A DNA stretch of 64,000 nt from Celeribacter indicus (GTDB lineage: Bacteria; Pseudomonadota; Alphaproteobacteria; Rhodobacterales; Rhodobacteraceae), in contig NZ_CP004393.1 in assembly GCF_000819565.1 (NCBI RefSeq), positions 1,674,001 through 1,738,000 of the forward strand. The letters run 5' to 3'. The position numbers and the translations under genes are program-made. The notes beneath the pieces are model-generated. The model did not search any database and was not told the origin of the DNA. It saw only the letters and a list, made by a program, of their open reading frames with translations. The first letter of the stretch is position 1, and every line of letters starts with the position of its first letter. Shown here piece by piece: positions 5,453 through 20,249 of the stretch.

Positions 5453-6532
5453 TCATCCCTCTCCGCCGGGGCGCGCCGCGTGCAGGGGGGCGGGCGGCGG
5501 GGAGAGGAGCCTGTTGCGCGCGTTGATCACTGTCACCAGTTCCACCGCTTCCGTCACCGAGAGCATGCGTCGTGCGGGCGGATAGCTGCGCCCGACGTCG
5601 CTCCCGGCGATGCCGGGACAGGCTGCGAGGAGGGAGGCACGGAGCAGCGGGCCGAGGCGGCGCAGCGCCTGCGGGCCGGGATAGAGCGTCTCGACCGGGA
5701 GCCCGTTGGCGAGGATGATCTCGTGCCGCCGGGTGAACAGCGTCACATAGGTGATCCGCGTCTTGCCGCGCATGCTCTGGATGCGCGGCAGGCCGGTGAG
5801 CGCCTTTGCCGGCGCCAGGATCTCGGCCGCCCCGAACAGGAAGTCGCAGGCCGCGTCCCGGATCAGGATGCGGTGATCGGGCGAGACGACCGTCTCCCTC
5901 GCGGGGCAGTCCGGGCCCATGCTGCCGGGTTTCAGCAGCACGGGTTTCCCGCGCTCCTCCGCCTGCGTGAGGTCGAGGGTGCGGCGCCCGACCCAGAGCA
6001 GGGGCACATCGCCGTGATCGCGCGTCGTCACCAGCGTGCCCGGCTCCAGCGCGGCGACATCCTGCGGCCCTTCCGGCGTCGCGATCGCGGTCCCCGGTGC
6101 GAAGCAGGAAAAATCGGCGAAATCGAGATTGCCGTCATCGTCGCCGCCGGCGCCCGCCGGTTTGTCCGCCTGCGAATACCGCACCGTCTCGGGCCCGGCC
6201 GGGACACCGCCGAGGTCGATCAGGAAGGGGCGTTCGGCGATCAGCAGATGTTCGTCGCCCGCGCCCAGCCCCTGTTCGATATCGGGCTGGACGGAGGTCT
6301 TCGGCATCACCACGGACCCGTCCGGGCCCTGGATCGTGACGAATTGCCCGTTGCGGAATTCCTCGACGCCGTCGCCCACCTGTTCGACGATGACGGTATA
6401 GAGCGCCTCACGCGGGCCGAGGGCCGTCACCCCCTCGACCGTCACGACGCGTTCGGCACCGTTCCCCTGTCCGTAAAAGCGCGTATAGGTGCCGATCTGG
6501 TCGCCGCGGAGCCGGAGCGTGATCATGGCCAT
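5453..6532 (-). CDS. Hint-domain protein
   Basis: Protein of 359 residues carrying a Hedgehog/intein (Hint) autoprocessing-type domain. About 140 N-terminal residues of unknown, acidic character precede SCFAPGTAIATPEGPQDV, where Cys143 is the position of the nucleophilic residue, followed by the second block VVSPDHRILI with its conserved Asp-His. Such Hint_2 proteins are common in Rhodobacteraceae and are often secreted or RTX-linked, but no signal peptide or calcium repeats are visible here. The natural role is unknown. It lies 100 bases downstream of the Slam-like gene on the same strand. The usual C-terminal intein His-Asn pair is not seen, so splicing is unlikely. Confidence 0.85.
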   Translation of the reverse strand: MAMITLRLRGDQIGTYTRFYGQGNGAERVVTVEGVTALGPREALYTVIVEQVGDGVEEFRNGQFVTIQGPDGSVVMPKTSVQPDIEQGLGAGDEHLLIAERPFLIDLGGVPAGPETVRYSQADKPAGAGGDDDGNLDFADFSCFAPGTAIATPEGPQDVAALEPGTLVTTRDHGDVPLLWVGRRTLDLTQAEERGKPVLLKPGSMGPDCPARETVVSPDHRILIRDAACDFLFGAAEILAPAKALTGLPRIQSMRGKTRITYVTLFTRRHEIILANGLPVETLYPGPQALRRLGPLLRASLLAACPGIAGSDVGRSYPPARRMLSVTEAVELVTVINARNRLLSPPPAPLHAARPGGEG

Positions 6533-6632: not shown

Positions 6633-7766
6633 TCAAAAGTCCTGGCGCAGGCTCAGGGCGCAGTCGAGGCTGTCGTAGTCGTAGAGCGCCACGTTGGACT
6701 CGTGGAACCGCGCGGTGCATTCGAGCCGCGGCTGCGTGTCGAGGACGCGGAGCTTCTCGTGCGACAGGGCGAGGCTCAGGTCGTAGATCCGGTCCTCGCG
6801 CGGATGGGTGAGGGCGGTGAAATCGGCGTCGAAGCCGCGCAGTTCCGCCCCGGCGCCCGCCTCCCATGTGAGGCCGGAGCGGGTCGCGCGGCGATAGCCG
6901 AGGCCGAGGCTGGCGGCGCCATAGGCGTAATGGTCGGCGCGGGTGCGGGCGCGGTCGAGCCCGGCGCTGAGGGTGACGCGCGCGCGGGGGGAGACGAGGC
7001 GGCTGTAGCTCAGGTCCAGCGCGGCGAAGGGGCCGTCCATGTAGTCGCGGGTCTCGAAGTCGCGGTATTGCACCAGCACGGAGCCGCGCAGCGTTCCGGC
7101 GTCCGACAGCGCGCGGGTGGCGGAGAGGGCGGCGCCCGCGCCCTGCCAGTCGGGGGCGCTGTCCGCGTCATGGGCGGGATAGGCCGTAGCCGAGGCGAGG
7201 GCCGCGACGGTCCAGGTCCGGCGGGGCAGGATCCAGGTGTGGCTCAGGGCGAGGGCGCCGGTGACCAGGCGCAGGGCGGGATCGTCGTACCAGGCGCCGC
7301 CGAGCGAGATCCGCAGGCCGAGTTCGCGGCCCGGCGCATAGGCGGAGGTGGCGTTCGCCGCGGTGTCGAGGCGCAGGCCCAGCCCGCTTTTCTCGCGCTC
7401 GTCGGCAAGATCGAATGTGCCGACCCCGGTCTCGAAGCGGTCATGCGAACTGGTGCGGGCGATGTTGGTGGAGGGCAGCACGGCGAGGCCGGCGGCGAAG
7501 CCGAGCGGGCGGTCGCGGCGGATCTGCTGCAGTGCCGTGAGATAGGCATCGGTGCGGCGCGTGTCCCCGGCATCGTTCAGCGCGAGCCAGCGCAGGCGGC
7601 GATAGGCGCTCTCGGGCCGGCCCGCCGCAAGCTCCGCATCCGCGCGCGCCGCGTGGAAGAGGATCGCGCGCGGGTCGAGCGCCGCGGCGGGGGCGGCGAG
7701 AAGGCCCAGACCGAGGAGCGCGGCCCTGAGGAGCGTGACCCTGAGGAGCGGGAGCAGGCGGGGCAT
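6633..7766 (-). CDS. Slam-like outer-membrane protein (DUF560)
   Basis: Predicted surface lipoprotein assembly modulator: an outer-membrane protein that moves lipoproteins to the cell surface in Neisseria and relatives. From the chosen ATG (7766, GGAG 7 bases upstream) the 377 residues comprise a signal peptide (LLRAALLGLGLLAAPAAA), a short helical TPR-like region with PESAYRRLRWLALND, then a long run of alternating amphipathic strands ending in the aromatic terminal residue of LRQDF, as in beta-barrel proteins. A GTG at 7799 overlapping the upstream stop is an alternative start. It is shorter than neisserial Slams (about 490), mainly in the N-terminal part. Pairing with a lipoprotein just upstream strongly supports the call; the family assignment is by pattern only. 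Confidence 0.72.
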   Translation of the reverse strand: MPRLLPLLRVTLLRAALLGLGLLAAPAAALDPRAILFHAARADAELAAGRPESAYRRLRWLALNDAGDTRRTDAYLTALQQIRRDRPLGFAAGLAVLPSTNIARTSSHDRFETGVGTFDLADEREKSGLGLRLDTAANATSAYAPGRELGLRISLGGAWYDDPALRLVTGALALSHTWILPRRTWTVAALASATAYPAHDADSAPDWQGAGAALSATRALSDAGTLRGSVLVQYRDFETRDYMDGPFAALDLSYSRLVSPRARVTLSAGLDRARTRADHYAYGAASLGLGYRRATRSGLTWEAGAGAELRGFDADFTALTHPREDRIYDLSLALSHEKLRVLDTQPRLECTARFHESNVALYDYDSLDCALSLRQDF

Positions 7767-7795
7767 GTCGGGGCTCCGGCGGTGCGCCGCCCGGA

Positions 7796-8554
7796 TCACC
7801 GGGGTGCGCAGACCGTCGTTTCGCAGACGGCATAGGCGCCGTCGAGGTCGTAGAGGGTCGCGTCCCCGTCGTCGAGGATGTTGACGTTGCCCTCGATGCC
7901 GCCGACCGCGGCCAGGGCGCTCTCCACCTGGTCGATGTCGAGGGAGACGAGGGCCTCCTTGTCGACGCGATAGAAATTCCCGTCCATGTCGACGTAGAGT
8001 TCGTATTTCTCGTTGGCAGCGGTCGAAAGAACCCCGGTGCCGTTCGCGGAAATCGCGGCAATTCCGGTGTCGGACTCCTCGGTGATGCTGCCGGCATAGG
8101 TCACCTCGCCGGAGAGCGGGGTGACCTGGCCATGGGCATGTTCGGGCACCGGGAAATAGGCGCTGTCGATGTGGTTGTTGTGGAGCTTGCCCGACACCTC
8201 TCCGGTTCCGAAATTCGCGGTCATGGACATTTCCCCGACGAAGGCGCCGCGCGTGTCCAGCAGGCTTTCCGCCGCGATGGCATAGATCCCCGACATCTCC
8301 GCCGTATCCTGCACCTGCCTGATATCGTCCCTGGTCAGCGGATCGGTATGTCCGGTCAGGTCCTGGGCGGCCGCGACGTCGAGGGTGAGGTCGTGCACCC
8401 TGTTGTAATCCTCATAGGTGCGCTGATCGTCGCCGGTGCCGCTGCCGGGAGGCGCGGGGGCGACCGGCGGCGGGGCGACGTCGTCCTCGCTGATGCGGCA
8501 GGCGGTGAGCGACAGGCAGAGAAGCGGAACGAGCAGGGGGGAAATGCGCGACAT
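7796..8554 (-). CDS. TbpB-like surface lipoprotein, probable Slam substrate
   Basis: Lipoprotein of 252 residues with signal peptide and lipobox LTAC (Cys19). A Pro/Gly-rich linker (about 26-42) precedes a helical stretch and then a beta-rich half. Residues 108-127 (GEMSMTANFGTGEVSGKL and following) match the strand-turn-strand signature of TbpB/Slam-cargo barrels, where a xxDFxxxxxxGxL pattern recurs. Two cysteines near the C-terminus (CETTVC) may pair. It is transcribed with the Slam-like gene, which follows within 30 bases. No ligand can be deduced; it carries no obvious metal or haem motif. Confidence 0.7.
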   Translation of the reverse strand: MSRISPLLVPLLCLSLTACRISEDDVAPPPVAPAPPGSGTGDDQRTYEDYNRVHDLTLDVAAAQDLTGHTDPLTRDDIRQVQDTAEMSGIYAIAAESLLDTRGAFVGEMSMTANFGTGEVSGKLHNNHIDSAYFPVPEHAHGQVTPLSGEVTYAGSITEESDTGIAAISANGTGVLSTAANEKYELYVDMDGNFYRVDKEALVSLDIDQVESALAAVGGIEGNVNILDDGDATLYDLDGAYAVCETTVCAPR

Positions 8555-8842: not shown

Positions 8843-10171
8843 ATGCAGGTCACCGAGACCCTGAACGAAGGTCTGAAGCGCGGCTATCAGATCACCATCA
8901 CCGCCGCAGAGCTCGACGAGAAGGTGAATGCCAAGCTCAGGGAGGCGCAGCCCGAGATCGAGATGAAGGGGTTCCGCAAGGGCAAGGTGCCGATGGCGCT
9001 CCTGAAGAAACAGTTCGGTCCGCGCGTCCTGGGCGAGGCGATGCAGGAAAGCGTCGACGGCGCGATGAACGAGCATTTCGACGCGACTGGCGACCGCCCC
9101 GCGCTCCAACCCGAGGTGAAGATGGATGCGGGCGAGGAGTGGAAGGAGGGCGACGACGTCGTCGTCACCATGACCTACGAGGCCCTGCCGCAGATCCCCG
9201 AGGCCGACCTGTCGAGCGTGACGCTCGAGCGGCTGGTGGTGAAGGCCTCTGCCGAGGAGGTCGAGGACGCGCTGAAGAACCTCGCGGCGACGGCCCAGTC
9301 CTTTGACGACAAGGACGGTGCGGCCGAGGACGGCGACCAGGTGGTGATCGACTTCACGGGCTATGTGGACGGCGAGGCCTTCGAGGGCGGCGCGGCGGAG
9401 GATTACCCGCTCGTGCTCGGCTCCGGCTCCTTCATTCCGGGGTTCGAGGAGCAGCTCGTGGGCGTGAAGGCCGGCGACGAGAAGACCGTCGAGGTCAAGT
9501 TCCCCGAGGAATACGGCGCGGCGAACCTCGCCGGCAAGGATGCGACCTTCGAATGCACGGTGAAGGCCGTGAAAGGTCCGAAAGAGGCGGAGATCGACGA
9601 CGAGCTCGCGAAGAAATTCGGCGTCGAGGATCTCGAGACGCTGAAGGGCCAGATCGCGGAGCGGCTCGAGGGCGAATATGCCGGCGCGGCCCGCGCGGTG
9701 ATGAAGCGCGCGCTGCTCGACCAGCTCGACGGCAAGGTCTCCTTCGATCTGCCGCCCTCGCTCGTGGACGCGGAGGCCAACCAGATCGCGCACCAGCTCT
9801 GGCACGAGGAAAACCCCGATCACCACGGCCATGACCATGGCGAGATCGAGGTGACCGACGAGCACCGCAAGCTCGCCGAGCGCCGCGTGCGGCTCGGCCT
9901 GCTGCTTGCCGATATCGGCCAGAAGCAGGAGATCCAGATCTCGGATGCCGAATTCACCCAGGCGGTGATGACACAGGCGCGGCAATATCCGGGCCAGGAG
10001 CGCCAGTTCTTCGAATTCGTGCAGCAGAACGCCCAGATGCGCCAGCAGATCCAGGCGCCGCTGTTCGAGGACAAGGTGGTCGACTGGATCGCCGAACAGG
10101 CCGACGTGACGGAAAAGGAGGTCTCCAAGGACGATCTCGAGAAGGCCGTCGAGGCGCTGGACGAGGAATGA
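8843..10171 (+). CDS. tig: Trigger factor
   Basis: Ribosome-associated chaperone and peptidyl-prolyl isomerase that shelters nascent chains, 442 residues, normal length. The N-terminal ribosome-binding signature GFRKGKVP is at residues 43-50; the FKBP-type PPIase domain follows at roughly 165-250 ([37 protein letters not shown]); the helical C-terminal cradle completes the protein. A His-rich patch (HHGHDHG, about 330-336) lies in the C-terminal domain and could bind metal. Single-gene unit closed by a terminator. Confidence 0.97.
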
Positions 10172-18631: not shown

Positions 18632-18961
18632 ATGGAAAAGGCGATGTCATCTGTGGGGGATGAGGACGCTGGCGAGGATCGGATGATCGTCGCCTTCAGG
18701 CAATTCGACCGCGCGATCCTGGTGATCGACCGCGCGATCGAGAGGATCGTGGCGGACGACCCGGATGTGGCCTTCGTCCTGCCGAAGAGTTTCAAGGAGC
18801 TGAAGGCGGCGCTTGAAACGGCACAGGTGGAAAGGAGACGGCTCGATGAACTGCGACGCAAGGACGGGGAGCTTCAGCGCGGAGAGATCGACTTCGACGC
18901 CGCACGGGCTGAGGTGCTTGATCGGCTGGCTCGCCTCAAGGCCGCGGGAGGAGCAGGTTGA
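18632..18961 (+). CDS. GTA g1, small terminase-like protein
   Basis: 109 residues from ATG 18632, which has GAGAGG 8 bases upstream (an ATG at 18608 has its GGAGG too close). The sequence is charged and helical: RQFDRAILVIDRAIERIVADD, then a long coiled coil from about residue 52 (SFKELKAALETAQVERRRLDE). This fits the reduced TerS of Rhodobacter GTAs, which lacks a sequence-specific DNA-binding domain, in keeping with non-specific packaging of host DNA. The call rests mainly on position just before the large terminase. Its 3' end overlaps that gene. Confidence 0.72.
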   Translation: MEKAMSSVGDEDAGEDRMIVAFRQFDRAILVIDRAIERIVADDPDVAFVLPKSFKELKAALETAQVERRRLDELRRKDGELQRGEIDFDAARAEVLDRLARLKAAGGAG

Positions 18962-20249
18962 GTTCCTCGACGGGCTCGGGGAGGGGGCGCTTCTGGCGCT
19001 CCCGTTCCTGTTCGAGGCCTGGGCGCACGATCACCAGCTCGCCCCGGAGGGCGACTGGCGCACATGGGTGATCCTGGGCGGGCGCGGCGCCGGCAAGACG
19101 CGCGCGGGCGCGGAATGGGTGCGCGCCATGGTGGAAGGCGCGAAACCCTGGGAGAAGGGCCGGGCCCGGCGCGTCGCCCTGGTGGGGGAGACCTACGACC
19201 AGGCGCGCGAGGTGATGGTCTTCGGCGAAAGCGGCCTCCTCGCGTGCAGCCCGCCGGACCGGAGGCCGGTGTGGCACGCCACGCGGCGCATGCTGGTCTG
19301 GCCGAACGGGGCGGAGGCGACGGTGTTTTCCGGCAGCGACCCCGAGGCGCTGCGCGGGCCGCAATTCGACGCGGCCTGGGTCGACGAGCTGGCGAAATGG
19401 CGCCGGCCGCAGGAGGCCTGGGACATGCTGCAATTCGGGCTGCGCCTCGGGGACGATCCGCGGGCGGTGGTGACGACCACGCCGCGCAACGTGGGGATCC
19501 TGAAGGCGCTTCTCGACCGCGGCAGCACGGTGGCGACCCATGCGCCGACGGAGGCGAACCGCGCCAACCTCGCGGCCTCCTTCCTCGAGGAGGTGCGCAG
19601 GCGCTACGCCGGCACGCGGCTCGGGCGGCAGGAGCTCGACGGCGTGTTGATCGAGGAGGAAGAGGGCGCGCTCTGGTCGCTGTCCCGCCTGGAGGGGATG
19701 CGCGAGGATCATGTGCCGGTGCTCGACCGGATCGTCGTCGCCGTGGACCCGCCGGTCACGGGGCATTCCGGCTCGGACGACTGCGGCATCGTCGTCGTGG
19801 GGGCCGTGACCCAAGGCCCGCCGCAGGACTGGCGCGCCTATGTGCTGGAGGATGCCTCCCTCTCCGCCGCCTCGCCGGTGGTCTGGGCGGAGGCGGCGAT
19901 CGCCGCATTCACCCGCTGGCAGGCCGACCGGATCGTGGCGGAGGTCAACCAGGGCGGTGACCTCGTCGAAACCGTGATCCGGCAGATCGACCCGTTCGTG
20001 CCCTACAAATCCCTGCGCGCCTCGCGCGGCAAGGCGGCGCGGGCGGAGCCGGTGGCCGCGCTCTACGATCAGGGGCGGGTGTTTCACACGCGCGATCTGG
20101 GCGCGCTCGAGGACCAGATGGTGAGGATGACGGTGCAGGGCTATCGGGGCCGCGGCTCGCCCGACCGTCTCGACGCGCTGGTCTGGGCGGTGCACGAGCT
20201 GATGATCCTGCCAAATCCGGGCAAGCCACGGATCAGGACGCTGGGTTAG
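18846..20249 (+). CDS. GTA g2, large terminase subunit
   Basis: DNA-packaging motor of the gene transfer agent, 467 residues. The ATPase Walker A motif GGRGAGKT is at 78-85 and the Walker B-like FDAAWVDELAKW follows near residue 180; the nuclease half has the acidic VVAVDPPVTGHSGSDDCGIVV block. The start is uncertain: ATG 18846 has AAGGAG 8 bases upstream but gives a 116-base overlap with g1, while TTG 18918 would remove about 24 residues that do not look family-like. It is followed within 10 bases by a terminator, unlike the remainder of the cluster. Confidence 0.92.
   Translation: MNCDARTGSFSAERSTSTPHGLRCLIGWLASRPREEQVEFLDGLGEGALLALPFLFEAWAHDHQLAPEGDWRTWVILGGRGAGKTRAGAEWVRAMVEGAKPWEKGRARRVALVGETYDQAREVMVFGESGLLACSPPDRRPVWHATRRMLVWPNGAEATVFSGSDPEALRGPQFDAAWVDELAKWRRPQEAWDMLQFGLRLGDDPRAVVTTTPRNVGILKALLDRGSTVATHAPTEANRANLAASFLEEVRRRYAGTRLGRQELDGVLIEEEEGALWSLSRLEGMREDHVPVLDRIVVAVDPPVTGHSGSDDCGIVVVGAVTQGPPQDWRAYVLEDASLSAASPVVWAEAAIAAFTRWQADRIVAEVNQGGDLVETVIRQIDPFVPYKSLRASRGKAARAEPVAALYDQGRVFHTRDLGALEDQMVRMTVQGYRGRGSPDRLDALVWAVHELMILPNPGKPRIRTLG

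Follow-up and report, generated by a model that had tools for sequence, protein, structure and literature searches.

Slam proteins are the translocators of the type 11 secretion system (T11SS). Slam1 translocates the lipoprotein TbpB with help from Skp, and how the TbpB-Skp complex is recognised was left open (PMC9090332). A 2017 survey, whose searches included alphaproteobacteria, reported Slams in all clades of Proteobacteria, all of them carrying a tetratricopeptide repeat (TPR) domain together with DUF560 (PMC5449769), and Slam has been described as having two TPRs (PMC7857515). Small deletions in the TPR domain of NilB led to colonization defects, which were ameliorated when the entire domain was removed (PMC8406197), and the role of the Slam periplasmic domain was left as a question (PMC8406197, PMC9090332). 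Here we describe a gene pair of Celeribacter indicus, located at positions 6,633 to 8,554 of a 64,000-nucleotide stretch (the window; contig NZ_CP004393.1, 1,674,001 to 1,738,000), which very probably forms a type 11 secretion (Slam) unit of two genes, its translocator shortened and its cargo lacking a handle domain.

The most closely comparable published loci are the cluster 3 T11SS loci of Rhodobacteraceae/Roseobacteraceae, to which part of a 2025 study is devoted; barrel lipoproteins were found there in 10 of the 11 loci examined, with few recognised cargos overall (PMC12282271). The C. indicus pair resembles these in coming from a related organism and in combining a DUF560 protein with a barrel lipoprotein. 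By contrast, the published locus carries thyX, lactoylglutathione lyase and DUF1194, none of which is an immediate neighbour of the window pair (open reading frames of the wider window were read by eye); its neighbours are a Hint-domain gene and tig. Loci with a lyase-like neighbour, identified by eye (L031, L032), fall in the other main group of our tree, and on the grounds of different neighbours and tree position we rejected an assignment of the pair to cluster 3. The main text of that study makes no mention of Celeribacter, Pacificibacter, Cognatishimia, Halocynthiibacter, trigger factor or TPR. An earlier reading of this DNA from sequence only (the sequence-only reading) had proposed that an alphaproteobacterial pair would broaden the Slam system. 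This did not hold, since such Slams are already in print (PMC5449769, PMC12282271) and 145 of 394 sampled genomes of the family have a SlipAM match; for the same reason a claim to the first alphaproteobacterial pair was abandoned.

The gene pair and its predicted folds

The cargo lipoprotein gene lies upstream and the Slam barrel gene downstream, both on the minus strand, with the following features.

7796..8554 (minus): cargo lipoprotein gene, 252 aa, ATG start
8498..8554 (minus): lipoprotein signal peptide, residues 1-19, lipobox LTAC, assigned by motif
8312..8434 (minus): helical stalk of the cargo, residues 41-81 (helices 41-69 and 75-81), AlphaFold2 model
7820..8305 (minus): eight-stranded barrel of the cargo, residues 84-245, AlphaFold2 model
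8174..8233 (minus): barrel motif, residues 108-127, second and third strand of the model
6633..7799 (minus): Slam/T11SS outer-membrane protein gene, 388 aa from GTG 7799, the first start codon
6633-7766 (minus): the same gene from an alternative start, ATG 7766, 377 aa
7774..7777 (minus): ribosome-binding-like GGAG, 7 bases before ATG 7766, read from the sequence
7506..7682 (minus): shortened periplasmic domain, residues 40-98 (388-aa numbering), three helices, from model and alignments
6636..7505 (minus): 14-stranded outer-membrane barrel, residues 99-388

ATG 7766 is more likely to be the Slam start than GTG 7799, given the GGAG upstream of it and the length of several relatives, 375 aa. With this start the genes are separated by 29 bases (7767-7795), in agreement with the sequence-only reading, which had placed the translocator within 30 bases of the lipoprotein; from the GTG, the genes would overlap by 4.

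The barrel protein matches SlipAM over residues 110-388 (388-aa numbering) at 54.2 bits, against a cut-off of 22, and its predicted structure has the 14 strands of a Slam barrel, the check that had been set beforehand. With a cargo gene next door, the protein thus resembles described Slam/T11SS proteins (DUF560, SlipAM, PF04575), and the earlier proposal of a Slam-like, DUF560-type translocator is supported by the family match, the predicted model and the conserved pairing. The short N-terminal helical part is also real, comprising three helices (43-58, 62-75 and 80-96) in the model.

In the cargo, the lipobox occupies residues 16-19, confirming Cys19 as proposed earlier, and this cysteine is invariant in all nine aligned cargos (the window's and eight relatives, 29-39% identical to it). 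The model places a low-confidence, probably disordered linker (20-40) ahead of the helical stalk and the barrel. We liken this protein to the Slam-dependent lipoproteins TbpB, LbpB, HpuA, fHbp and haemophilin, from which it differs in having a single lobe and in that its stalk is helical, in the place of their beta-rich handle (PMC5449769); no such handle domain is present before the barrel in the model. Realignment of structural matches to the cargo model yielded fHbp, NHBA, TbpB, LbpB and HphA, and also OmpX, Ail and OmpA, whose scores among the matches listed were 10.7, 10.0 and 8.6, the first two nearly as high as those of the cargo-type matches. Because these small barrels match as well, the fold alone is no proof of kinship with Slam cargo.

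The best family match of the window cargo is NCBIfam NF041636 (slam_lipo) at residues 101-128, with 18.9 bits and E 0.0015. This match, although below the family cut-off, encloses the barrel motif that the sequence-only reading had noted at about 108-127. All nine aligned cargos match slam_lipo (best E 1.5e-4), and four of them, the window cargo not included, match Pfam TbpB_B_D (best E 9.4e-5). A Pfam scan of the window lipoprotein gave no match, and a search with the NF041636 profile gave none in the C. indicus genome or any control genome. Searches of PDB sequences with the single cargo and Slam proteins found no relevant match, and the cargo alignment found none at E 1; with the Slam alignment, the best 60 of 82 matches were TPR proteins, designed repeat proteins and the like, falling in the N-terminal part of the profile. 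A search for related loci with the single barrel protein as query returned no matches. The TbpB-like barrel lipoprotein proposed earlier finds its support in the cargo model and the conserved pairing.

For the barrel model, Foldseek ranked PelB, OmpG, FadL and BcsC first, and no Slam structure was among the best 50 structural matches listed. These ranks would suit an outer-membrane channel for polysaccharide or a small solute, with the lipoprotein as a periplasm-facing partner or plug, as would the reports that TPR domains are part of, or associated with, both T11SS and the machineries of exopolysaccharide secretion, and that PF04575 takes in PgaA homologues (PMC8406197). We consider a channel improbable: the SlipAM match is over its cut-off, the partner has the predicted fold of known Slam cargo and belongs to an alignment with TbpB_B_D matches, and no polysaccharide synthesis genes were seen beside the pair when the open reading frame lists were read by eye, no dedicated search having been made.

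Slams with a shortened periplasmic domain

The stretch from the signal-peptide core to the barrel start, referred to here as the stalk, measured 64-70 residues in 10 short Slams of a 62-row alignment, as against 94-219 residues in 51 of the 52 other rows. The exception, L038, measures 60 residues owing to an N-terminal domain of a different, haem-type kind. This measure covers the fetched loci, namely the 30 top-ranking ones of each search together with some others; an earlier motif-based measure had left 17 of 64 rows, three of the short clade among them, without the motif and unmeasured. In trees built from barrel columns only, the 10 short Slams form one clade in both runs (support 100/99), and on midpoint-rooted trees this clade sits among long-stalked rows, for which a single shortening is the simplest account. 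Six of the short Slams, aligned with that of the window, share 34-42% identity with it and have retained the barrel.

None of the 10 short rows has a Pfam TPR match at E < 0.1, one having TPR_21 at 0.14, whereas all 12 longer rows tested (out of 52) have Pfam TPRs at E 3e-4 or better. The window Slam gave no TPR family match in Pfam at E up to 5, or in a later scan at E up to 1. Its three remaining helices line up with the final repeat and the capping helix of longer Slams, suggesting that, of two repeats, the first is absent and the hairpin of the second persists along with the capping helix, which would imply loss of a repeat rather than gain. The best explanation is that the periplasmic domain of the short clade amounts to about one helical hairpin plus a capping helix, which makes it shorter than that of its nearest relatives by about 35 residues, or roughly a TPR unit.

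Beyond the family, the best 30 loci of the phylum search all have at least 154 residues before the barrel, signal peptide included. The stalk measure gives 77 for one of the phylum loci, L114, an internal helix having been mistaken for the signal peptide; its barrel is really preceded by 215 residues. The length gap between the short clade and the rest is nonetheless not absolute, since two orphan Slams of Pacificibacter marinus (L151, L152), outside the short clade, have in-between stalks of about 75 residues by eye. We regard the short-stalk clade as a natural and modest new variant of T11SS. No description of it appeared among the titles and abstract openings listed in full-text searches, and one may stand in a supplementary table.

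A neighbouring pair type occurs in the same genus (e.g. L017, L037, L039), likewise with the cargo gene followed by the Slam gene. Its cargos have 182-189 aa, and its Slams have stalks about 35 residues longer, with TPR matches. In the four sampled genomes holding both types, the neighbouring-type and short-type cargos within a genome share 26-29% identity. Both pair types occur, for example, in the C. baekdonensis genomes G011 and G012. A natural clade of environmental bacteria that would have shed part of the domain, accompanied in these genomes by a longer-stalked pair, thus supplies matched natural variants and makes the role of the Slam periplasmic domain testable.

In the mechanism we propose, the lipoprotein would be exported by Sec, lipidated at Cys19, taken to the outer membrane via the Lol route and held unfolded by a Skp-type chaperone, after which the 14-strand barrel protein would pass it across the outer membrane. 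Outside, the cargo would fold into its eight-strand barrel and stay lipid-anchored via the flexible linker and helical stalk. With the periplasmic domain cut down, a small single-lobe cargo would be recognised mainly by the translocator barrel or the helical remnant. Our best guess for the cargo is a module for binding or adhesion at the surface that has no TonB-linked receptor. More tentatively, and with rather less than even confidence, the short-stalk clade may represent a minimal T11SS in which the 14-strand barrel alone recognises and translocates a small single-lobe lipoprotein; the TPR domain would then be a dispensable specificity or chaperone-docking add-on, outside the translocation machine. 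Pointing the same way are L144, with almost no periplasmic domain, L038 with its haem-type domain, and L151 and L152, shortened on a separate branch.

Several single loci depart from the usual domain layout. Five with short open frames had been added on purpose (L141 to L145). L144 encodes a SlipAM barrel without the periplasmic domain, and L141 a 302-aa outer-membrane protein without it, which may belong to another family; L142 is a row with TPR-like helices, and L143 is cut by a contig edge. In L145 (G311:C1:329000-332000) the SlipAM gene looks interrupted, the signal peptide and TPR-like helices lying, by eye, in a different frame from the barrel. The L144 gene is the same as L147:6784-7830 (plus strand); its product, a SlipAM barrel of 348 aa, has next to no N-terminal domain. 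By eye, the locus also contains two vWA-like genes and one resembling lactoylglutathione lyase, a setting like that of the published cluster 3 locus. The L038 gene is the same as L146:10092-11399 (minus strand), a SlipAM barrel protein (44.1 bits). Instead of TPRs, its N-terminal domain carries two CXXCH haem-c motifs (CQSCH, CLSCH), with a Cytochrome_C7 match at E 3.9e-4 that is below the cut-off, and a segment close to where the barrel begins contains several His and Gly residues; a convergent 193-aa lipoprotein gene accompanies it, and a second Slam lies about 4 kb away.

Pairing and distribution of cargo and translocator

Among 61 genomes (that of C. indicus and 60 relatives), lipoprotein relatives occur in 10, all in the window's genus, and SlipAM in 25. 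A SlipAM gene adjoins the cargo in 7 of the 10 cargo genomes; it does not in G009 and G010, and G004 ends at a contig edge. In the family sample, 37 of the 394 genomes have a cargo-alignment match, and 134 of the SlipAM matches mentioned above are over the cut-off. By eye, 11 of the 45 cargo matches listed lie within about 2 kb of a listed SlipAM match on the same strand, cargo first (G093 left out of the count), and the seven strongest cargo matches are all among these 11. Pairing of the cargo with a SlipAM gene is more than chance. More widely, a cargo-alignment match was found in 32 of 244 genomes of the order sample, and SlipAM in 69 of 398 genomes of the phylum sample.

The cargo lies directly upstream of the Slam in all 10 short-clade rows and in 11 of 13 rows of the neighbouring group, the two misses being L027, with only about 600 bases upstream, and L038, with its convergent lipoprotein; flanking genes vary between loci. 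For several cargos, late start codons were chosen in this survey of neighbours. Pairwise distances of Slams and cargos correlate (r 0.95 over 21 pairs; r 0.64, p 0.004 for the 8 non-redundant short pairs), the cargos having been cut at the first Cys, which in the window and L101 falls a few residues before the lipobox Cys.

Several observations weigh against a Slam unit with its cargo. The TPR domain, reported for all Slams of the 2017 survey (PMC5449769), is unrecognised in the window Slam, and the slam_lipo match of the cargo is far below the cut-off of 80 bits. Foldseek alone gave no match to the cargo model at E 0.001 or better, and 9 of the 50 realigned rows listed are other small barrels, including biotin-binding proteins and a designed barrel. 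The cargo stands without an adjacent Slam in two P. marinus genomes (G009, G010), and the distance correlation takes no account of species relatedness. That the pair is decaying, with a non-working translocator and a cargo that is either a relic or relies on a different Slam in trans, would fit these two genomes and the patchy occurrence of the cargo (of the 394 family genomes, only G000, G002, G246 and G350 have a strong match, with E below 1e-40, the next match being 1.2e-12), but is very unlikely in view of ten uninterrupted short-stalk reading frames, the conserved barrels of the six aligned ones, and a C. indicus genome with no other SlipAM match at E 0.001, hence no second Slam to serve the cargo in trans there.

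In P. marinus, L102 and L103 retain the cargo gene with no Slam next to it (in L102 a tig-like gene adjoins it), and Slams with a shortened stalk stand without a lipoprotein neighbour in L151 and L152, beside an ndk-like gene (by eye); these separated genes are possibly a split system. No credible Slam remnant lies between the cargo and an ABC-transporter gene in L102 and L103, the best tblastn match (E 0.008) being elsewhere in the locus. The orphan Slams were rejected as clear lost partners of the orphan cargo, as they fall outside the short clade, though their stalk is also shortened. At L107:7809-9028, a 210-aa lipoprotein-like open reading frame matching the cargo (30% over residues 72-208) is followed by a 183-aa lipoprotein-like one, and no Slam was seen beside the two by eye.

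Neighbouring genes in the window

Next to the pair lie two genes outside the system:

8843..10171 (plus): trigger factor (tig), divergent neighbour, Pfam Trigger_N and Trigger_C
5453-6532 (minus): Hint_2 domain protein, 147.9 bits

A trigger-factor-like protein also adjoins the cargo in L098, L102 and L104 (by eye) and serves as a locus marker in several relatives. Farther along the window, 18813-20249 (plus strand) encodes a large terminase subunit (Terminase_6N and 6C), which may belong to a prophage or a gene transfer agent cluster.
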